DNA from: Candidatus Brocadia pituitae | Lineage (GTDB): Bacteria > Planctomycetota > Brocadiia > Brocadiales > Brocadiaceae | NCBI GenBank assembly: GCA_017347445.1 | Contig: AP021856.1 | Location: 3,170,613-3,234,612 of the forward strand | DNA: 64,000 bases | Direction: 5' to 3' | Shown here: positions 1,172 to 21,286 of the stretch, piece after piece | How the letters are laid out: every line of letters begins with the position of its first letter | How positions within the stretch are numbered: the stretch's first letter is position 1 | Program-made: the position numbers and the translations under genes | Notes under the pieces: generated by a model | Seen by the model: only the letters and a program-made list of their open reading frames with translations | Database searches by the model: none | Told to the model about the DNA's origin: nothing

Positions 1172-4100
1172 ATGAGTCGGAAGATGGTTACCGTTGATGG
1201 CTGTACGGCGTGTGCACATGTGGTGCATGCTACCAATGAAATTATCACAATTTATCCGATAACGCCTTCTTCGCCAATCGCCGAGATATGCGATGCCAAG
1301 ACGGCCGCTGGACAGGTGAACATCTGGGGGTCGGTGCCGAAGGTAAGCCAGATGCAGTCAGAGGCAGGCGTTGCTGGGGCGGTGCACGGGTCGCTGACAA
1401 CAGGTGCGCTGGCAACCACGATTTCATGTTCTCAGGGGCTTCTATTGCTTCTTCCGAACATGTACAAGATTGCCGGAGAACTTGTCCCAACTGTCTTTCA
1501 CTTGACTGCTCGTTCCCTGGCATGTCAGGGATTATCGATTTTTGGCGACCATTCAGACGTCATGGCCGCGCGTTCTACGGGCTTTGCCATGCTGTGCTCG
1601 AAAAACGTGCAGGAGGCCATGGACTTCGCCTTGATTGCTCAGGCGGCGGCCCTCGAGTCCAGGATACCGTTCATGCATTTCTTCGATGGATTCAGGACGT
1701 CCCACGAGGTGCAAAAGATTGAAGAGGTGTCTTTTGATGATATGCGGGCAATGATCGATAACGATCTGGTGATAGCCCACCGCAAGCGGGGTCTTACCCC
1801 AGACAATCCTTCTATCCGCGGCACTGCTCAGAACCCTGATGTGTACTTTCAGGGACGGGAAACCGTGAATAAATATTATGCCGCGACACCTTCCCTTGTG
1901 CAGAAGGCAATGGACAAATTTGCCAGGGTTACCGGTCGCCAGTATAAACTTTTTGACTACTCTGGCGTACCCAATGCTGAACGCATTATTATCATTATGG
2001 GCTCAGCCGGAGAGACAGTGTTTAATACCATCCAGAAACTCAACGCACAGGGAGAAAAACTGGGATTGATCCAGGTAAGGCTGTACCGACCGTTTGATGT
2101 TGATGCCTTTGCCGATAGCTTGCCTGCCAGTGTAAAGGCGATTGCCGTCCTTGACCGCACCAAGGAGCCCGGCGCTATTGGTGAACCGTTATATCTCGAT
2201 GTAAGAACGGCCATCGGTGAAGCACTGGATAGGGGGACGGCAAAATTCAAGAATTACCCGGTAGTGGTTGGCGGCCGTTATGGGCTTGGTTCAAAGGATT
2301 TCACCCCAGCTATGGTGAAGGCCGTATTTGATAATATCGCACAGAGTAAACCGAAGAACCACTTTACCATTGGTATTAACGATGACGTTACCGGCACCAG
2401 CCTTACGTACAATGAATCCTTTACGATTGAAGGGAAAGAGGCGTATCGGGCATTGTTTTATGGCCTTGGGGCAGACGGTACCGTTGGCGCAAATAAGAAT
2501 ACAATCAAGATTATTGGCTCTGAAACAGATAACTATGCGCAGGGTTACTTTGTGTATGACTCAAAAAAGTCTGGTTCAACGACGGTATCCCACCTGCGCT
2601 TTGGAAAAGACAAAATACTTAATCCGTACCTTGTCACAAAGGCAAATTTCATTGCCTGCCATAATCCGTCATTCCTTGAAAAATACGATATGTTGTCTCA
2701 TGCGGAGGAAGGCGCAACGTTTCTCCTGACTACCTCAAAAAACAAGGACGAGATATGGGACAGTCTGCCGGTGGAAGTGCAGGAACATCTCATTACCAAG
2801 AAGATGAAATTCTATATTATCGATGCTATCGCCCTTGCCGAGGAGATCGGGCTAGGCACGCGGATTAACACCATTATGCAGACCGCCTTCTTTGTTATTT
2901 CAGGCATTATTCCCAGGGAAGAAGCTGTCGATGCAATCAAGACCGAGCTTAAAAAGACGTATCAAAAGAAGGGCGATGAAGTGGTCAAGATGAACTACGC
3001 CTCCGTGGACAAGGCGCTTCAAAATATTGTTGAGGTAAAAGTGCCTGCCAGGGTTACCAGCAAACTCAGGATGCGGCCGCCAGTACCTGAAAATGCCCCT
3101 GAATTTGTAAAAAATGTAACAGCAAAGATGATTGCCAACAAAGGGGATTATTTGCCCGTTTCAGCCATACCGGCCGATGGCACCTGGCCTACCGGAACGA
3201 CTCAGTATGAAAAGAGGAATATTGGGGTACATATTCCTGAGTGGGAACCTGATGCATGTATTCAGTGCGGTCAGTGCTCATTTGTCTGTCCCCACGCAAC
3301 GATCCGGATAAAGGCGTATGATTCTGCATTATTAAAGGATGCACCCCAAAAATTTAAATCGATTGATGCGACGGGTAAAGAACTGAAAGGGCTGAAGTTT
3401 ACCGTCCAGGTAGCGCCGGAAGATTGTACCGGGTGTGGTTCCTGTGTGTTCAACTGTCCCGGCCAAAAGAAGGATGAACAGGGGAACAAGATCCCCGGTG
3501 TCAAGGCTATCAATATGAAGCTTCAGGAGCCGCTCCGTCATCATGAGGCGGAGAACTACCAGTTCTTCCTTGATCTCCCCGAAACGGATGCTTCGCGGTT
3601 TAACGTTAATTCCGTGAAAGGGAGCCAGTTTGTAAAGCCGCTTATTGAATATCACAGCGCTTGCGCAGGATGCGGGGAAACTCCCTATATCAAATTGATT
3701 ACCCAGCTATTTGGCGATCGCCTGATTATTGCCAATGCCACAGGGTGTTCATCCATTTACGGTGGAAATCTACCAACAACTCCCTATACCAAGAGGGCTG
3801 ATGGACGTGGGCCAGCGTGGTCGAACTCCCTCTTTGAGGACACAGCAGAATTTGGTCTTGGTATGCGGCAGACGGTAGATAAGTTTCATTCCCAGGCAGT
3901 AGAGTTGCTGGAAAAACTGGTCAAGACGCCTGCGTATGGGGATGCAAAAGAACTTTTTGAGTCCTTGAAAAACGCCGACCAATCTACCCAGGAAGGAATT
4001 GAAAAACAGAGAGGACGTATAGAAGAGCTGAAAAAGCGGCTGTCAAAGGATGCCTCATCCGATGCAAAGAGTCTCCTCTCTCTTGCTGATTATTTGGTCA

Positions 4101-4753
4101 AGAAATCGGTATGGTCGATTGGCGGTGACGGATGGGGTTATGACATCGGGTATGGTGGGGTTGATCATGTACTGGCGTCGGGCGAAAATATAAAGCTCCT
4201 TATTATGGATACCGAGGTCTATTCGAATACCGGTGGACAGATGTCCAAGGCGACTCCGATGGGGGCGGTTGCACAGTTTGCAGCCGGTGGAAAGAGGACA
4301 CACAAGAAAAATATCGCTTTGATGATGGCTACCTATGGCAAGATATACGTTGCTCAGGTGGCATTCGGGGCAAACCTTGCCCAAACCGTCAGGGCAATAA
4401 CAGAGGCAGAGGCATACAACGGCCCGGCGCTGATTGTTGCCTACTCGGTGTGTATTGCCCATGGCTTTGACATGAGCAGGGGCATAGAACAGCAGAAAAA
4501 GGCGGTTGCCAGTGGATATTGGCCGCTTTACCGGTATAATCCGCAGCTTGAGGCACAAGGGAAGAATCCTTTGGTTCTTGACAGCAAGGATCCCTCCGCT
4601 TCTTTTGAAGAATATGCCTATAATGAAAATCGCTATCGGGCGTTAAAGGCGAGCAATCCTGAAGTAGCCGCAGCGCTGATGAAGCAGGCGGAGGCAGAAA
4701 TCCAGAGGCGGTGGAAATTGCTCAAACACCAGGCAGCATGGTCGCCTGTGTAG
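1172..4753 (+). CDS. nifJ: Pyruvate:ferredoxin (flavodoxin) oxidoreductase
   Basis: 1193-residue homodimer-type PFOR, full length. It interconverts pyruvate plus CoA with acetyl-CoA, CO2 and reduced ferredoxin in the cytoplasm. The N-terminal domain carries the ITPSSPIAE motif. Two ferredoxin-type 4Fe-4S motifs follow, CIQCGQCSFVCP near residue 696 and CTGCGSCVFNCP near 752. The cluster and thiamine-diphosphate domain begins with CAGCGE near 831, continues with ATGCSSIYGG, and has the TPP signature GDGWGYDIGYGG near 985 followed by DTEVYSNTGGQ. The GAGGAG at 1160-1165 fixes the ATG start. No operon partner is adjacent. In autotrophs using the Wood-Ljungdahl route the enzyme commonly runs in the pyruvate-synthesis direction; that is family knowledge, not visible here. 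Confidence 0.97.
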   Translation: MSRKMVTVDGCTACAHVVHATNEIITIYPITPSSPIAEICDAKTAAGQVNIWGSVPKVSQMQSEAGVAGAVHGSLTTGALATTISCSQGLLLLLPNMYKIAGELVPTVFHLTARSLACQGLSIFGDHSDVMAARSTGFAMLCSKNVQEAMDFALIAQAAALESRIPFMHFFDGFRTSHEVQKIEEVSFDDMRAMIDNDLVIAHRKRGLTPDNPSIRGTAQNPDVYFQGRETVNKYYAATPSLVQKAMDKFARVTGRQYKLFDYSGVPNAERIIIIMGSAGETVFNTIQKLNAQGEKLGLIQVRLYRPFDVDAFADSLPASVKAIAVLDRTKEPGAIGEPLYLDVRTAIGEALDRGTAKFKNYPVVVGGRYGLGSKDFTPAMVKAVFDNIAQSKPKNHFTIGINDDVTGTSLTYNESFTIEGKEAYRALFYGLGADGTVGANKNTIKIIGSETDNYAQGYFVYDSKKSGSTTVSHLRFGKDKILNPYLVTKANFIACHNPSFLEKYDMLSHAEEGATFLLTTSKNKDEIWDSLPVEVQEHLITKKMKFYIIDAIALAEEIGLGTRINTIMQTAFFVISGIIPREEAVDAIKTELKKTYQKKGDEVVKMNYASVDKALQNIVEVKVPARVTSKLRMRPPVPENAPEFVKNVTAKMIANKGDYLPVSAIPADGTWPTGTTQYEKRNIGVHIPEWEPDACIQCGQCSFVCPHATIRIKAYDSALLKDAPQKFKSIDATGKELKGLKFTVQVAPEDCTGCGSCVFNCPGQKKDEQGNKIPGVKAINMKLQEPLRHHEAENYQFFLDLPETDASRFNVNSVKGSQFVKPLIEYHSACAGCGETPYIKLITQLFGDRLIIANATGCSSIYGGNLPTTPYTKRADGRGPAWSNSLFEDTAEFGLGMRQTVDKFHSQAVELLEKLVKTPAYGDAKELFESLKNADQSTQEGIEKQRGRIEELKKRLSKDASSDAKSLLSLADYLVKKSVWSIGGDGWGYDIGYGGVDHVLASGENIKLLIMDTEVYSNTGGQMSKATPMGAVAQFAAGGKRTHKKNIALMMATYGKIYVAQVAFGANLAQTVRAITEAEAYNGPALIVAYSVCIAHGFDMSRGIEQQKKAVASGYWPLYRYNPQLEAQGKNPLVLDSKDPSASFEEYAYNENRYRALKASNPEVAAALMKQAEAEIQRRWKLLKHQAAWSPV

Positions 4754-4966
4754 ATTTTTTATTCAGCAGTATGCCGTATTTAGTAAATAAAGCGGCAGGG
4801 ATATTTAGCATAAGTACTTATCCTGTTTTCTTGATATCACTCAATTTGTAATGTTAACAAGTTAGAATTATAGTAGTAAAAATTTTATATGTAAATATTT
4901 ATATCAATTTTCCTTGATTTGCACTGTACTATTTGTCAAATTAAAGAAAACTTGTTAATAACATTA

Positions 4967-6028
4967 TTAGGCGGCGATGGGCACGCCGGCGGAGTGAAGC
5001 GGTGAAACACTACGACATCATAAACAACGAACTGGTCGTATCGCCCGTTGGCGCCGGCGCGATCGTGGTCGCGAGCGCGCCAGATGCTGAGGAGCGAAGG
5101 TCTATCAAGGAGACATTTCAGCTTGATGACTACGACTTGGGATCAACTCTGGACCCAGACGAGGTTCCTCGTCTGGAGAATTCTAAAGGGAGGCTGTTCC
5201 TGATCTGGAAGGTTCCGGAACCGGCATCGGTATCAGGTACCGTGGAGTTGGGTATCAGCACATTGGGGATCTACCTTGTGCAGGATCGACTCATGCTGGT
5301 TCGGGCCAGCGGCGACGTCGGGTTCGCCGACCGAGAGTTTCGCGGTGTTCGGAACGCTTCCGACGTGATGTTGGCCATCCTGCTGCGGACGGTCCGACAC
5401 TGTGTCGGACACCTTCGGGTTATCCGTCAGATGAGCAGAGAACTGGAGAAGAAGATCACGACGTCCATGGAGAACAGGCATCTGGTCCAAATGTTCTCCT
5501 TGAACGAGGACCTTGTTTACTATCAGGACGCTATCGAGGGTAACGCCGCTGTGCTGTCAAAGCTTCGGGGCGTTGCGGGCCAGTTCGGGTTTGAGGCTCG
5601 GCAGTTGGAACTGCTCGACAACATCGTACTGGAGAACACCCAAGCCGCCCGTCAAGCGGCTATCTTCGCCTCCGTGCTTAGTGGTCTCATGGACGCTCGG
5701 GGCACCATCGTCAACAACAACATGAACGTATTGCTTAAGAACCTCACGCTGATCAACATCGTCTTCTTGCCGCTCAATCTCATCGCGAGCATTGGCGGGA
5801 TGTCTGAGTGGAGCATGATGACGGAGGGCCTGGATTGGCGGCTATCCTACACCCTTTTCTCTCTTGGAATGGTGGTTATTGGCGGTGTCACGTGGCTTCT
5901 GATGAAGAAGTTAATCAACAGGGGCGTGGCGCGGTCGCAAGTGACCGGCGGCGCGCCGCCTAGTCGCCGCCTAACAGGCCGATGAAGCTGACAGTTGCCT
6001 GCGGCGCCCGCAGCTTATCGGCATGACG
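4967..6028 (+). mobile_element. Single integron-type gene cassette carrying a corA-like gene
   Basis: The interval begins TTAGGC (4967-4972) and ends with the G of GTTAGGT at 6028, the two points where integron integrases cut. One GC-rich gene fills it, starting 35 bp from the left edge with its stop codon inside the attC, as in classical cassettes. The 5' TTAGGC is the exact reverse complement of GCCTAA in the left core of the attC (5969-5975), so the excised circle would have a perfect attC. The one mismatch at the integrated right core (GTTAGGT) falls in bases supplied by the neighbouring DNA. No integrase gene or second attC is visible, so this is a lone cassette or an array remnant. The base before the left cut is A rather than the usual G. 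Confidence 0.82.
5002..5985 (+). CDS. CorA-family divalent metal ion transporter
   Basis: 327 residues. The long charged N-terminal cytoplasmic region fits a CorA funnel. Two C-terminal membrane helices follow: about residues 250-272 (INIVFLPLNLIASIGGM) and 283-307. CorA channels carry Mg2+ or Co2+ as pentamers and have a GMN loop after the first helix. Here the loop reads GMSEW, so the Asn is replaced by Ser; GMN variants occur in the wider CorA/ZntB-like superfamily and may alter ion choice. The start is taken as GTG at 5002, just inside the cassette edge. The stop TGA (5983-5985) lies within the attC and contains its extrahelical G. The gene is clearly richer in GC than its neighbours, which supports recent transfer. 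Confidence 0.82.
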   Translation: MKHYDIINNELVVSPVGAGAIVVASAPDAEERRSIKETFQLDDYDLGSTLDPDEVPRLENSKGRLFLIWKVPEPASVSGTVELGISTLGIYLVQDRLMLVRASGDVGFADREFRGVRNASDVMLAILLRTVRHCVGHLRVIRQMSRELEKKITTSMENRHLVQMFSLNEDLVYYQDAIEGNAAVLSKLRGVAGQFGFEARQLELLDNIVLENTQAARQAAIFASVLSGLMDARGTIVNNNMNVLLKNLTLINIVFLPLNLIASIGGMSEWSMMTEGLDWRLSYTLFSLGMVVIGGVTWLLMKKLINRGVARSQVTGGAPPSRRLTGR

Positions 6029-6034
6029 TTAGGT
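5969..6034 (+). other. attC recombination site
   Basis: 66 bp. The outer cores are GCCTAAC (5969-5975) and GTTAGGT (6028-6034), matching RYYYAAC and GTTRRRY. The inner arms are GCCGATGAAGCTG (5978-5990) and CAGCTTATCGGC (6011-6022). They pair perfectly except for one extra G at 5984, the typical extrahelical base that sets strand choice. The 20-base centre is a GC-rich variable terminal structure. Confidence 0.85.
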
Positions 6035-6473
6035 AGTGTCTGAACGAAAACGCACTTTTTGTAAAAGTGCGAGGGCGATTTTTTCCTTACCAAGAGATCA
6101 TTTTAAAATTTGAGATTGGGTTTTTGCTAAAATACGGTTCTTTTACCCGTTTCCCTTGATTTTTTCTTTAATTTAACCTTGTCTGGGCGCACCTTCCGCC
6201 CTGCAGACTGTTTTTCTTCGTGTTTTCTGTTTGCTTAGGCGGCTTTTCGCGACTTTTCGCACTGCTTCCGGGAAACAGAGGGGTCAAATCTTTACAGGCT
6301 GTCCGAGAATGCAACCATGAATAAAGACACAGGAAATTGTGTATAAAGGAAATACGATCGATAAACAAATCAGAAAAAGGTTAAAATATTTCCATCCAAA
6401 TCATACTTTTATCTCAAGAGCATAAAAAGGACATGAAACTCCCCCAATGCGGGCTTGTTTTCCTTGTATTACC
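6035..6473. other. Non-coding stretch between cassette and IS1182 remnant
   Basis: No convincing gene. A perfect 9-bp hairpin with a 3-base loop lies at 6051-6071 (CGCACTTTT / AAAAGTGCG), followed by T6 about a dozen bases on, so it could act as a terminator. CTGTCCGAGAAT at 6299-6310 recurs at two other insertion scars in the window. A 66-codon minus-strand frame here has no recognisable motif and is not called. Confidence 0.5.
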
Positions 6474-7420
6474 TTATACCGCGGCGAGCCGTATTCCAAG
6501 TTTCAGCATCTTTTTTAAATTCCAACCAATACACATCAGTTTAAACTCCCACGGACTTTTTCCAGTCCTCGCAAGAGAAAGTTGCGATACCCCACATTAA
6601 ATTTCAGATGCCCAAAGACGGGTTCAATGATATACTGACGCATAAAATATTTTCGCCTTCCCTCATCCGATATCAGCTTTTATCTCATCTTTTGTAAAAG
6701 AGGTTCACGAATATCTATGAGGAGTTCTCTCGCCTTTGCCTTCGTGCATAATGACCGCTTCTGACATGCCCCACACTCCGTCCCCCGGTAAACTTTATGA
6801 TTCCACTGACGGCTCTCCGTCTTCTTTGTTCTGGTCCTCCAGTATGTTAGCCGCTTCCCCTCCGGACATACATAACTATCACTTGTCGCATCATATTTAA
6901 AATTACTGTAGTGATACCGATGTTCCTCTTTTTCATACTCGCCTGACTGGTATTGTTGAAAATTACTATCAGGCACATATCCATCTATCTCTCTTTGCTC
7001 CAGATACTCATAGTTTGCATAGCTCCCGTACCCACAATCTGCCGCTACTTCTTTGACTTTTTCTTGCGTGTTTGACTCTGTCTGCTCTATCACCGGTTTC
7101 AATTGATTCCGATCATTCGCTTCTGTTACTGCTTCCCCTGCTACGATAATCCCTGATTCGGTTACCGCCGCCTGGCAATTGTATCCAGGACGAATGTCTT
7201 TACTTCCGCCCGATTTCATATGATTGGCATCCCGGTCGGTAAGATTGATCTTCTCTTTTCCTTCCTCCTTCATTACCTCCAGCGCCTCTTCTATTCTCCT
7301 TTTCAGGTACGTACGCTCGGATAACTTCTTCTGTAATGCCTCTTGTTCCGAATCAATTTTGCAGCTCTCGTCTTCCTGGTTGTCAATGGTTTCCGCTTCC
7401 TTTAATAATGTCGCTATCTA
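6474..7420 (-). pseudogene. IS1182-type transposase, 3' exon, degraded
   Basis: C-terminal two thirds of a DDE transposase. Reading leftward from the intron there is a charged coiled segment, then TDRDANHMKSGG, the second catalytic region VAADCGYGSYANYEYL, a CPEGKRLTY / CGACQKRSLCT cysteine region, and the third catalytic region IIEPVFGHLKFN. The gene is dead. An in-frame TAA sits at 6680-6682 and one base is missing from a G run near 6555, after which the frame resumes as CIGWNLKKMLKLG and ends at 6474. The 5' exon lies beyond the group II intron at 9415-9945. Confidence 0.82.
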
Positions 7421-9414
7421 GCTGGTAGACTGGAGGCAGAGCCTCCAGCCCCCAATCGTCGCCAGGTACATTGGACAACGACCACTGCACCTTTTTAAAC
7501 CATACGTCTTTCTCGTAGTTAGCGACCCCAGTAGCGTTGCTCTATACCAGAGAAGAGGTAACCTATCATGCCTTAGCACACGTCTTAAGAAATTCTCTTT
7601 CAAATGAGAGTAATCCCATCTTGAAGAAACGGTGTACCGGGAAGCGTTTGTTGTCAGTTTTCCACTTTCTCGAAAACTTGAAGCATCGAAGCCTCATTCG
7701 TACCCAGCAGTCTAACGAGCGATATACCTTTTGTACATCGCCCAGCCGAAAATAGTTGACATGTCCACGAATTACCGGGTTTAATGTATCAATGACGGCT
7801 TGCAGATTAACGCCTTGTGTGCGTCTGGTGATGTTCCTGATGTTGTTCTTGAGTTTATCCAGTGACTTCATGCTTATCCCTTTGTAATTGCCAGAGAAGT
7901 TGTATCCGAGAAACCTGAAGCCTCGTTTGAAGTTGGTGAGCTTGGTTTTATCCTCGCTCAGCTTCATTCCAAGCTTCCCTTCAATGATTTCCTTGACATA
8001 AGTAAGGGCGGCAGGGAGTTCTTCTTTGGTCTTTGTCATGACAACGAAGTCATCAGCATAGCGGACAAACTTATATCCCGCTTTTTCAAGCTCCTTATCG
8101 ATGATGTCACCGACAAGGTTGGCAAGTAGGGGAGATATGACACCTCCTTGCGGAGTGCCTTCGGTTGTCTTATGCACGATGCCGTCCTCCATGACACCTG
8201 CCTTAAGCATGTGCTCAACGCTGTTTAAAACCCATCCATCAGCAATCTTTTCACGCAAGGAGTTCATGATGAGCTTATGAGGTATCGTGTCATAGAATGC
8301 CTTTATATCGGCATCCAATAAACTCCGATACCCTTCCTGCTTATACTGTTCAAGCCTCTTGATAGCATCGTGGCAGCATCTCTCCGGACGAAATCCAAAG
8401 CTGTTGTCTGAGAATTCCTTCTCAAATATTGGCTCTATGATTTGCCTGAATGCCTGCTGTACCACCCTGTCTTTAACGATGGGAATGCCAAGAGGTCTTT
8501 TCCCGTGTTTGCCTTTGGGAATATATACCCTCAGCACAGGAGAGGGTTGGTATATCGTAGTTTTTAGCTCCTTGTGAATATTCGTGATATTCGTATCAAG
8601 ATCAGCTTCAAACTGTTTTATACTCACCCTGTCAAGACCAGCTTTGCCTTTGTTCTTCTTTACGTGCCCAAAAGCAGCATAAAGGTTTTTGAGGCCAAAC
8701 ACCTTGTCTCTTAATGAATGATACTTCAGCATCTCCCGATAAATTCCTTTTGATTGATTACGGTTGATAGATTTGTCAACCGTGTTTCCTGAGTGCTCGT
8801 ACCCCATGCCATAAACACCACAAGAGAGGCTCTTGTTACTACCGTGCTTTCTGCAAAGAGTATCTGTCCTCACTGAACGTATTTAATCTATCCCTTTCAT
8901 CAACTCCACTACGGTTATGCCCCTTCATCCTGAAGCCAGTTCAGGACTATTATGAGCAATGCTGACGACTTCAAAGACAGACCTGTGAGAGCCAGTCGTC
9001 TGTTACCATCTCATATAGCCTGGATTTCGGATTTCCCTTATACCTTGCTGTTAGGGAATTTCTTCCCAAGACGTAAGTCCTCCCTCGGTCATATGGATTA
9101 CCCCTTTTCACTTCGTGATGTATGTTCAAACGCATTATCCAGAGATGTTTTCGCCTAATCTCCTGCATCATCTCTAACAGGGACATTGTCAGTGCTTCAC
9201 CGAGAAAGGGCAGTTGGCACGAACTAACACGCCATACTCATACACCCCAAAAGGTCGTCTGTACCTCGTAACTCCGTCATACCCCTCACGGGAAATACGC
9301 TATCTTTCTACGCATACGGATTGCTCCATGGTATGCGCATAGGGACAAACTTCTCCACGAGAACTTAGGCTTGCAGAGATGGTATTTTCAACCACTTAGG
9401 TATTCCATACTTCA
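7421..9414 (-). mobile_element. Group II intron inserted in an IS1182 transposase gene
   Basis: About 2 kb lies between two halves of one transposase: the upstream half breaks off after LSGIEE and the downstream half resumes at IATLLKEAE. The architecture fits a mobile group II intron: about 540 nt of non-coding RNA (domains I-III) on the 5' side, a maturase gene in domain IV, and about 145 nt on the 3' side where domains V and VI should lie. The 5' end near GTGCCTTG resembles, but does not exactly match, the common GTGYG start. A GAAA-containing hairpin near 7500-7530 is a weak domain V candidate. Exact ends are uncertain by several bases. Its orientation matches the host gene, so splicing would rejoin the exons. 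Confidence 0.8.
7566..8873 (-). CDS. ltrA: Group II intron-encoded reverse transcriptase/maturase
   Basis: 435 residues. The reverse-transcriptase core shows RPLGIPIVKDRVVQ, FGFRPERCCHDAI, the TPQGGVISPLLANL motif and the catalytic YADD near residue 272. The C-terminal maturase (X/GIIM) region includes HVNYFRLGDVQKVYR and WVRMRLRCFKFSRKWK. There is no HNH endonuclease domain, so it belongs to the endonuclease-free lineages. The protein assists intron splicing and reverse-transcribes the intron into target DNA. The frame is intact, unlike the surrounding transposase, suggesting the intron is younger than the IS decay or still selected. The exact start is unsure; the conserved part begins near MLKYHSLRDKVFGLKNL. 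Confidence 0.93.
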   Translation of the reverse strand: MRTDTLCRKHGSNKSLSCGVYGMGYEHSGNTVDKSINRNQSKGIYREMLKYHSLRDKVFGLKNLYAAFGHVKKNKGKAGLDRVSIKQFEADLDTNITNIHKELKTTIYQPSPVLRVYIPKGKHGKRPLGIPIVKDRVVQQAFRQIIEPIFEKEFSDNSFGFRPERCCHDAIKRLEQYKQEGYRSLLDADIKAFYDTIPHKLIMNSLREKIADGWVLNSVEHMLKAGVMEDGIVHKTTEGTPQGGVISPLLANLVGDIIDKELEKAGYKFVRYADDFVVMTKTKEELPAALTYVKEIIEGKLGMKLSEDKTKLTNFKRGFRFLGYNFSGNYKGISMKSLDKLKNNIRNITRRTQGVNLQAVIDTLNPVIRGHVNYFRLGDVQKVYRSLDCWVRMRLRCFKFSRKWKTDNKRFPVHRFFKMGLLSFEREFLKTCAKA

Positions 9415-12154: not shown

Positions 12155-13225
12155 TTATGCCGTTTGTCCAACATAGTCTTTGTTTGAGTGTGCTAATTTT
12201 GTGCTAAATTCACTGTAGCTTTTTTCCAACATTCCGATAGCCTTTGTGAGATGTGCGGGAGTAATATGAGCATAACGCATCGTCATTTTCGTGTCTTTAT
12301 GCCCCATTAATTCAGCAAGTGTATATATGTCAACACCTGCTTGCCTATTCCATGATGCAAAGCAATGCCTTAAATCATGAAATCTGAAATCCTCTATTCC
12401 CGCACGTGCTAAGGTCTTTTTAAATACTTTGTACACCTTTTTTGGATCGTAAGGCTTACCTTCACCGTCACAGAAAACATAAGGGCTGTTCACCTTGTCA
12501 TTGGTTACGCGACTTGCTATTACCTCATAAGCATTGTTAGCAATAGGGATTCTCAGATTTTCACCATTCTTGATTTCCTTGCCATCAACCATTATTTCCC
12601 GTGTTAAATGATTTATCTGATCCTTCCTCAATCTAACAACATTTTCACGCCTCAGCCCCGTCCATGCAGCCACAATGACAATATCCTTTAACCATGCATC
12701 ACAAAACCCCAGGAGTTTATGAAACTCTTCATAGGTTAAATGCCTTGTGCGCTTGTTATCTGCATTGGGTTCCATTTCGATAAGAGGAATTTCTTTTATC
12801 CACATCCAACGCTTTTTTGCAAGGCTAAACATCCTTCTCAAAAAAGAAAACTGGCAGTTAATGGTTGCAGGCTTTACCCCTTGTTCTTTTCTCATCTGTC
12901 GAAAATCATCTATCAATGCAGGAGTAATTTCGCTCAACTTGTATTTTCCAAAGAATGCCCTGAGCTGGTTTACATAACATCTGTTCTTCTTGTAGCTCCT
13001 GAGTTCTTTAAACACATGAGTCTCATATTTCTCTGCAAGTTCCTCAAATGTCCTCTGGTTTCCCTCATCAACATCAAACCATTTACCTTCTGTAATCTGA
13101 TTGATTACCTTATGGTAAATCCTTTCTGCCAGCTTCTTGTCCGTTGTTTCTGTCGATTTTCTTACTTGTTGGCTATGGTAAGTAAACCGCATCCACCAGA
13201 CCAGACCTCTTTTATAAAGTCCCAT
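12155..13225 (-). CDS. int: Tyrosine recombinase (integrase)
   Basis: 356 residues from ATG 13225, preceded by AAGGAGG. The catalytic set is visible: R192 in TGLRRENV, H283 and R286 in HDLRH, H309 in MGHK and nucleophile Y318 in MRYAH. The N-terminal SAM-like core-binding domain spans about residues 60-150. It would catalyse integration and excision at the attL/attR repeats. It is the last gene of a tightly packed minus-strand set: the upstream stop ends one base before this start. The C-terminal tail after about residue 337 overlaps the candidate attachment site. Confidence 0.93.
   Translation of the reverse strand: MGLYKRGLVWWMRFTYHSQQVRKSTETTDKKLAERIYHKVINQITEGKWFDVDEGNQRTFEELAEKYETHVFKELRSYKKNRCYVNQLRAFFGKYKLSEITPALIDDFRQMRKEQGVKPATINCQFSFLRRMFSLAKKRWMWIKEIPLIEMEPNADNKRTRHLTYEEFHKLLGFCDAWLKDIVIVAAWTGLRRENVVRLRKDQINHLTREIMVDGKEIKNGENLRIPIANNAYEVIASRVTNDKVNSPYVFCDGEGKPYDPKKVYKVFKKTLARAGIEDFRFHDLRHCFASWNRQAGVDIYTLAELMGHKDTKMTMRYAHITPAHLTKAIGMLEKSYSEFSTKLAHSNKDYVGQTA
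12191..12213. other. Candidate attL of the integrative element
   Basis: Contains CTAATTTTGTGCTAAA (12195-12210), identical to 20158-20173; the 23-bp alignment has two mismatches. It overlaps integrase codons 338-345, so the last codons of the integrase would come from the flanking chromosome. Such att sites at the end of int are common. Confidence 0.65.
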
Positions 13226-13226
13226 G

Positions 13227-13730
13227 TTATACGACCTCCTTTCCGAGACCTTGATTTGGGCCTGGTTTCCCGTTGGGTGGATTATATACATCATCCACAA
13301 TGGTATCAATACCATTTTTGGTGCAATATAACTTAATGCATCTCTTGTTCATTTCTTCCCATTGCTTTACTATTTCTTGAAAGGCTTTTATGTCTTTTCC
13401 CTCATCCCACATCTTGTTCATTCTCTGTTCGAGTTCTTGTGTTTTATCATACATCCTGGGAAATACTAGCATTATGTAACTAAACGTATCCTCTCGGTAT
13501 ACTTGTGCAATTTCGCTTACCGTATCCTTAAAAATAGCTTCCATTTCGTTCATAGTCTTCAGATACTCTATAACTGTAGCCTTATTTCCTTTTATCTCAT
13601 TGATTGTTGTCGAAGCTTCTTTCGGTGGATTGTCTTTACCTACAAACTTTAGTTTAATCTTGTCACCGTTAAGAATGACTTTATACCCCATGCTTTGCAC
13701 GGTATGGATAAGTTTTGGTATCGCGTTCAA
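13227..13730 (-). CDS. TubC N-terminal-domain-like small protein
   Basis: 167 residues with a TTG start at 13730. GGAG sits upstream and the TTGA overlaps the stop of the ATPase gene, so translation is probably coupled. The first 55 residues (IPKLIHTVQSMGYKVILNGDK, then a K-rich strand and KATVIEYLK) resemble the TubC_N-like fold often attached to primases and replication proteins of mobile elements. The rest is charged and helical with no recognised domain. Its place between ATPase and integrase suggests an accessory replication or excision role; that is inference. Confidence 0.68.
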   Translation of the reverse strand: MNAIPKLIHTVQSMGYKVILNGDKIKLKFVGKDNPPKEASTTINEIKGNKATVIEYLKTMNEMEAIFKDTVSEIAQVYREDTFSYIMLVFPRMYDKTQELEQRMNKMWDEGKDIKAFQEIVKQWEEMNKRCIKLYCTKNGIDTIVDDVYNPPNGKPGPNQGLGKEVV

Positions 13731-20833: not shown

Positions 20834-21138
20834 ACCATGAAATTTTCATCAAGCCTCGAGCGGAATTGGATTTATTTGAGGCCTTCAAATTTTACGATGA
20901 ACAATCTTCTGGTTTAGGTGATGAATTTATCCGTTGTGTTGATGCCAAATTGGAATTTATTAATAGGAATCCCAAGGCTTGCCCAAAAATGTATAAGGAC
21001 TTTCATCGTGGATTAATTTCAAGATTTCCTTTTGGTATTTATTATAAAATAGAGGGGAAAAGAATCGTGGTTTTTGCTATTCTTGATTTAAGACAAGATC
21101 CTGAAAGAATTCAGTTTCGCTTAACAAAAGAAGGCTAA
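20830..21138 (+). CDS. RelE/ParE-family toxin
   Basis: 102 residues of typical length. Family pattern: N-terminal beta strand and helix (AELDLFEAFKFYDEQSSGLG, then FIRCVDAKLEFI), and the C-terminal strands RGLISRFPFGIYYKI and RIVVFAILDLRQDP. Toxins of this fold act on ribosome-bound mRNA (RelE) or gyrase (ParE); which applies is not visible. The ATGA overlap with the antitoxin gene confirms the pair. Confidence 0.88.
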   Translation: MNHEIFIKPRAELDLFEAFKFYDEQSSGLGDEFIRCVDAKLEFINRNPKACPKMYKDFHRGLISRFPFGIYYKIEGKRIVVFAILDLRQDPERIQFRLTKEG

Positions 21139-21286
21139 CAATGCAATCCAGCCGACCGCAAAAAATGCGGCGGCTGATTTTTTATGTTAGTCGTTGAAAA
21201 TGATTGTTATTATGACGGTACGTAGATGATGGTTTGACGGTCAAACAATCAGATGTTTTTGCATACATCAAATAGCAGAAAATAAA

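Follow-up and report, generated by a model that had tools for sequence, protein, structure and literature searches.

The question raised by this locus is how a GC-rich gene that ends in a single integron-type recombination site (attC) came to lie in a planctomycete chromosome with no integron integrase gene (intI) beside it. The locus lies near one end of the window, a 64,000-nucleotide stretch of the genome of Candidatus Brocadia pituitae. The host genome consists of one contig of 4.075 Mb. Two hydrazine synthase alpha genes in it mark the host as an anammox planctomycete. A first-pass annotation of the window had proposed capture by an integron-type integrase that is not encoded nearby, and both the anatomy of the cassette and the absence of intI from the window bear this out. 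We conclude that positions 4754–6034 are very probably an integrase-less integron remnant, composed of an attI site and one captured CorA cassette with a normal attC (Table 1).

Table 1. Features of the locus and its surroundings, in window coordinates
Feature	Position	Strand	Basis or remark
Pyruvate:ferredoxin/flavodoxin oxidoreductase-type gene (PFOR)	1172–4753	+	1193-aa ORF; named from translation; upstream chromosomal neighbor
Predicted orphan attI element (leader and recombination site)	4754–4966	+	Repeat dispersed in family genomes, with its end at the junction; intI-adjacent in two (G004, G008)
L-box-like TTAATAAC	4955–4962	+	Followed by a 3-bp spacer; crossover after 4966
Predicted complete integron gene cassette, linear form	4967–6028	+	Left core TTAGGC complementary to R''; attC at right end
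Predicted gene for a CorA-family divalent-cation transporter (327 aa) with GMS in place of the GMN filter motif	5002–5985	+	Pfam and PDB matches; alignment of relatives
Predicted attC site, 66 bp	5969–6034	+	R'' 5969–5975; R' 6028–6034; unpaired G 5984
Insertion-sequence (IS) end of 237 bp, abutting attC	6034–6270	+	94–96% identical copies elsewhere in five genomes
Second, degraded IS fragment	6271–6943	−	85% identical to C1:2911631–2912312
Transposase-like ORF	6680–7273	−	Named from translation

The cassette, its attC site and its cargo

The sequence features on which the first-pass annotation relied, namely the TTAGGC edge, the GTTAGGT, the 66-bp attC, its pairing arms and the extrahelical G, were all found in a base-level check of the window. 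The left core (4967–4972) has the TTRRRY form and, as had been claimed, is perfectly complementary to the GCCTAA of R'' (GCCTAAC), while R' reads GTTAGGT. The inner arms of attC, GCCGAT-G-AAGCTG (from 5978) and CAGCTT-ATCGGC, pair with one another and leave the G at 5984 unpaired. The reading frame begins with a GTG codon, and its stop codon lies within attC, as annotated; the gene was also correctly described as GC-rich, the cassette having a GC content of 57.4%, as against 24.4% in the left flank and 43.5% in the window as a whole. Strictly, the last base of the linear cassette is G6028, and 6029–6034 belong to the right neighbor.

A fold of the attC bottom strand had been proposed as a check; that strand does fold (−16.4 kcal/mol, z −2.2), yet the fold of the top strand is just as stable (−16.5 kcal/mol). 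Because folding alone gives no polarity, the orientation of attC was taken from where the unpaired base lies and from the gene, not from energy. In the best-known attC sites the base extruded from the bottom strand is a G, whereas in this site it is a C.

A search of the 4.075-Mb genome with the stringent core pattern GCCTAAC-N30-60-GTTAGGY gave a single match, and none of 100 dinucleotide-shuffled versions of the window yielded a candidate that equaled attC in cores, stem and energy together. The degenerate core pattern is not enriched in the whole genome (65 matches versus 96 in the control), so only structure and family similarity are informative for attC. Within the window, no Rfam match was found at the gathering threshold. 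With one attC in the stringent scan and no intI, the window fits the definition of a SALIN; a CALIN, which needs at least two attC sites without intI, was considered and rejected on this count. A hairpin of 60 bp (GGCTAAC..GTTAGTC) with a T-run at 21133–21192 is probably a terminator that mimics attC.

An attC that is 85% identical to that of the window lies in the same genome after an unrelated gene (C1:1743140–1743210). It is the first attC of a decayed cassette array of about three units (C1:1742.2–1744.5 kb; L045 7200–9480; elsewhere given as 1.742–1.745 Mb), the last attC of which resembles that of the unclassified bacterium RI_301 described below.

The cassette protein matches Pfam CorA (E 3.9e-30) and the CorA chains of the PDB (E 1.5e-9), and by domain match its predicted product is a CorA-family transporter. 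The GMS filter motif in place of GMN is invariant across all 10 aligned relatives. In 58 related genomes, no relative is more than 31% identical over most of its length, and a search of a plasmid collection returned only CorA proteins at 25–29% identity. The closest relatives (75–78% identity) come from RI_301 (L038) and from a member of the Desulfobacterales (L030), and both are attC cassettes. The RI_301 cassette (78% identity) starts AAAG|TTAGGC next to a full-length divergent intI, and its terminal attC is a different one; the L030 cassette (75% identity) has a terminal attC of the same type as in the window, flanks that are not attI and no intI within 5 kb. Two tandem intI-like reading frames lie next to the RI_301 cassette (L038 2370–4888). 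The CorA gene is accordingly found as a cassette in two unrelated bacteria, in contexts that differ from that of the window.

Two more distant relatives with common flanks (L033 and L034) have no attC, which indicates that this CorA gene family is not solely cassette-borne. The same gene without attC had been named in advance as evidence against cassette insertion; such genes do exist, but they are harmless to the cassette reading, since the relatives at 75–78% identity are cassettes. The other observation named in that sense, longer homologous flanks in relatives, was not made: homology ends exactly at the attI crossover, and the cassette call stands. Judged from its sequence, 4967–6028 is a genuine integron cassette, well supported by the perfect core complementarity, the 66-bp attC, the empty result of the shuffles, the related attC and the occurrence of the same gene as a cassette elsewhere. 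As a case of gene capture the cassette is ordinary, and its CorA-type transporter is shared between phyla.

The left flank and its copies across the family

Comparison of 4300–4966 with the related genomes returned the PFOR gene and many matches over about 4753–4965, nearly all of which end at the cassette junction. We aligned 33 distinct family copies, anchored on the junction; L081, which contains pieces of intI, was excluded on account of its degenerate junction. Mean conservation is 1.32 bits over positions −30 to −1 versus 0.13 bits over +7 to +40. The six bases 3′ of the crossover are mostly TTRRRY, and past those the copies diverge into different genes; the end of the element reads TTAATAAC-ATN-GTTRRRY. 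No right-hand terminal repeat was seen. The crossover base is G in 31 of the 33 copies and A in the window, where it may be mutated.

Two of the aligned copies have a full-length, divergent intI in the flank examined (G004 and G008, within 1.5 kb), and a third has an intI remnant (G005); for one copy (L073) the sequence upstream is missing. Like nearly all the other copies, the one in the window is not intI-adjacent; it has PFOR directly upstream. By homology with these copies, 4754–4966 is best described as an orphaned attI homologue and not as anonymous chromosome. The first-pass annotation had instead placed the capture at an ordinary site with the predicted empty form ACATTA joined to TTAGGTAGTG; that part of its account is not supported, since the left flank is a multicopy attI of the family and the right flank is the end of an IS. 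We also considered the left element as a long attC of a preceding cassette and rejected this assignment: its hairpin has no R'' complementary to GTTAGGC, and the element is intI-adjacent in two genomes.

In at least nine attI copies, a canonical attC stands behind the first gene or the first few genes, and its R'' fits the core of the same copy perfectly or with one mismatch; about two-thirds of the copies have no recognizable attC after the first gene. Pairing between the core and a downstream R'' was found in 13 of 33 real cases versus 30 of 145 in which cores had been swapped between copies, a test that is only mildly discriminating. The intI-linked copy of G004 is followed by an acetyltransferase cassette, the attC of which starts GATTAAC, the exact complement of the core TTAATC. 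Behind other copies lie genes for RidA-like, TIR-domain, Mrr-type restriction, ParE-like, methyltransferase, DUF433 or DUF3786 proteins, and such mixed cargo is usual for cassettes.

Many leaders, including that of the window (about 4900–4940), retain a TTGAC..GTCAA inverted repeat (TTGAT in the window), possibly in a promoter or operator position. At one locus of G004 (C1:3.487–3.489 Mb; L085 1551–3704), three attI copies lie about 1 kb apart with a different gene after each, and the region upstream of the third, which comprises attI and the end of a transporter-like gene, is in part a repeat of that upstream of the first. This arrangement suggests a segmental duplication or attI-type cassettes.

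Family genomes contain attI copies at several unlinked loci, up to about seven per genome, and dozens of integrase-less attI sites are scattered across the genomes of relatives. The host has three copies (3.175, 1.615 and 3.334 Mb), none of them intI-adjacent. A search for intI elsewhere in the host genome, which had been proposed, was productive: an intact gene lies at 1.436 Mb, an N-terminally truncated copy at 1.779 Mb, and fragments at 2.940 and 0.630 Mb. The intact gene is 1.74 Mb from the window and belongs to a subfamily different from that of the attI-linked integrase. To the attI-linked integrase of G004, the host intI genes are 41–46% identical, and the host has no close homologue of it. 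The intact host gene forms part of an intact integron with one divergent cassette and a 93-bp attC (C1:1435.0–1437.0 kb; L001 445–2439). No intI was found in the 64-kb window, and the locus thus lacks the combination of intI, attI and cassette at one place that defines a complete integron. The tyrosine recombinase at 12155–13315 (−) was considered as an integron integrase and rejected on a weak score.

PFOR and insertion sequences around the probable remnant

Orthologues of PFOR are present in most family genomes, and in three of them (the host, its sister species G007, and G004) an attI lies downstream of this gene. In the window, attI follows directly after the PFOR stop codon. In G007, it lies about 400 bp after PFOR with a RidA-like cassette and attC, a cargo unlike that of the window, and in G004 it lies about 130 bp after PFOR and is split by an IS. 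In the other ten genomes examined, no attI was found within 900 bp of PFOR. The left boundary of the attI in the window differs from those in G007 and G004, so a single ancestral insertion of attI behind PFOR is not proven. An 11-bp repeat, GATTTTTTATT, is found at the window junction, in an intI-linked leader (L069) and in the PFOR flank of G006. These repeats would fit a deletion of intI between short repeats, which we offer as a suggestion only, given that the flanks differ in the two genomes whose PFOR is closest.

On the right, the sequence abutting attC has full-length counterparts in five genomes, the host included, which begin at the same base (TAGTGTCTGAACG) and are preceded by diverse sequence; the notion that this IS targets integron sites was rejected on account of that diversity. 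The first base of the IS doubles as the final T of R'. The annotation had ascribed the one-base difference in R' to a neighbor, and the base is indeed external, but the neighbor is an IS and the base its first. Because AGTG and the final T of R' are IS sequence, the predicted empty site provides no clean test; the string was absent from every locus examined. A cassette-less counterpart of the window's layout is seen in G002 (C336; L125 138–236), where attI is followed directly by IS-end-like sequence (TAGTGTTTGAACGG), and the arrival of the IS before or after the cassette is therefore possible in either order. In the IS-rich stretch of the window, a reverse-transcriptase/maturase-like ORF (7566–8873, −) is of the group II intron type from its translation and has no Rfam intron match at the gathering score.

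Origin of the locus and comparison with known systems

A remnant of this kind would arise if an integron integrase recombined a circular cassette, by way of the folded bottom strand of its attC, with attI to give attI|TTAGGC...attC. An upstream intI would then have been lost, perhaps through recombination at GATTTTTTATT, which occurs in both the intI-linked leader and the PFOR 3′ flank of a relative. The IS end would have come to lie against the right side of attC later, or it may already have been present when the cassette entered. The cargo may be expressed from the attI leader.

The reading implied by the first-pass annotation, in which a trans-acting integrase inserted the cassette at a secondary, attG-type site and the left flank is ordinary chromosome, would account for the single attC and the lack of a nearby intI. 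Non-classical sites tolerate a crossover base other than G, and the L030 cassette, described above, may be an example. However, the 213 bp on the left are an attI element common to many loci and intI-adjacent in two genomes, and we consider an attG-type origin very improbable. One could alternatively take the dispersed 213-bp element as a mobile promoter or MITE-like repeat to which cassettes are linked only secondarily; it occurs in many copies per genome, most without intI and some in tandem, and most copies lack a recognized downstream attC. That all copies diverge at the integron core, that this core is TTRRRY with no terminal repeat seen on the right, and that two copies are intI-adjacent and at least nine are followed by gene and attC make such a repeat very unlikely.

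That the locus is a GC-rich gene with a terminator-like hairpin behind it, similar to a cassette only by chance, has next to no probability. The two attC strands fold equally well, and degenerate core motifs are common; yet no shuffle reproduced the site, an attC of the same type stands behind an unrelated gene, and the same gene is a cassette next to intI in RI_301, such that the independent cassette copies effectively refute a coincidence. The integrase-less integron remnant is thus the reading we retain. A broader proposal, that integrase-less attI sites serve as genome-wide docking and expression points, loaded singly in trans by any integron integrase in the cell, strikes us as rather doubtful.

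The orphan attI as target takes the finding past one insertion, as the family carries many such sites, recognized here by homology. Integron surveys seek intI and attC, and attI outside class 1 goes unsearched. The attI of this family is recognizable from sequence alone, and stranded cassettes mark old platforms, some of which adjoin a housekeeping gene that is the same from species to species while the cargo differs. Recognition of attI is accordingly a direct route to the mapping of lost integrons, and the orphan sites allow one to ask whether a non-cognate integrase can still load them.

In terms of known systems, a published intI tree includes a sequence from the anammox genus Kuenenia. 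For a family-wide scatter of orphan attI sites, a literature search covering titles and abstracts and few subscription papers found nothing relevant, which is weak evidence of novelty. Single-attC loci (SALIN) and attC clusters (CALIN) without integrase are recognized classes (PMC12690207; PMC9024848; PMC12444791), and like them the window has an attC cassette with no intI nearby and an integrase encoded elsewhere in the genome. These classes are defined by attC alone, whereas the window also has an attI, and IntegronFinder does not detect attI outside class 1 (PMC9024848). In Xanthomonas, sedentary chromosomal integrons at ilvD have retained their arrays after inactivation or loss of intI (PMC12444791); as in the window, the platform site is kept, the integrase is lost and cassettes are stranded. 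Where Xanthomonas keeps intI, it is always at one conserved locus, whereas here attI occurs at several unlinked loci per genome. Non-attI genomic targets of cassettes, termed attG (Loot et al. 2024, as cited in PMC12690207 and PMC12444791), are, as far as those citing papers describe them, similar in that a single chromosomal cassette lies away from intI; the target in the window differs in being an attI homologue. Finally, in the Delta-attI-type gene cassettes of class 1 and 2 integrons, the downstream end carries an attI fragment in place of attC (PMC12901181). These resemble the present case in having attI fragments away from intI, and the attI2 consensus AATAAAATGTTRRRY resembles the AATAACATNGTTRRRY of the window's family. 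In the window, by contrast, attI lies on the upstream side of a cassette that has a normal attC; the tandem attI copies of G004 may be closer to the Delta-attI type.
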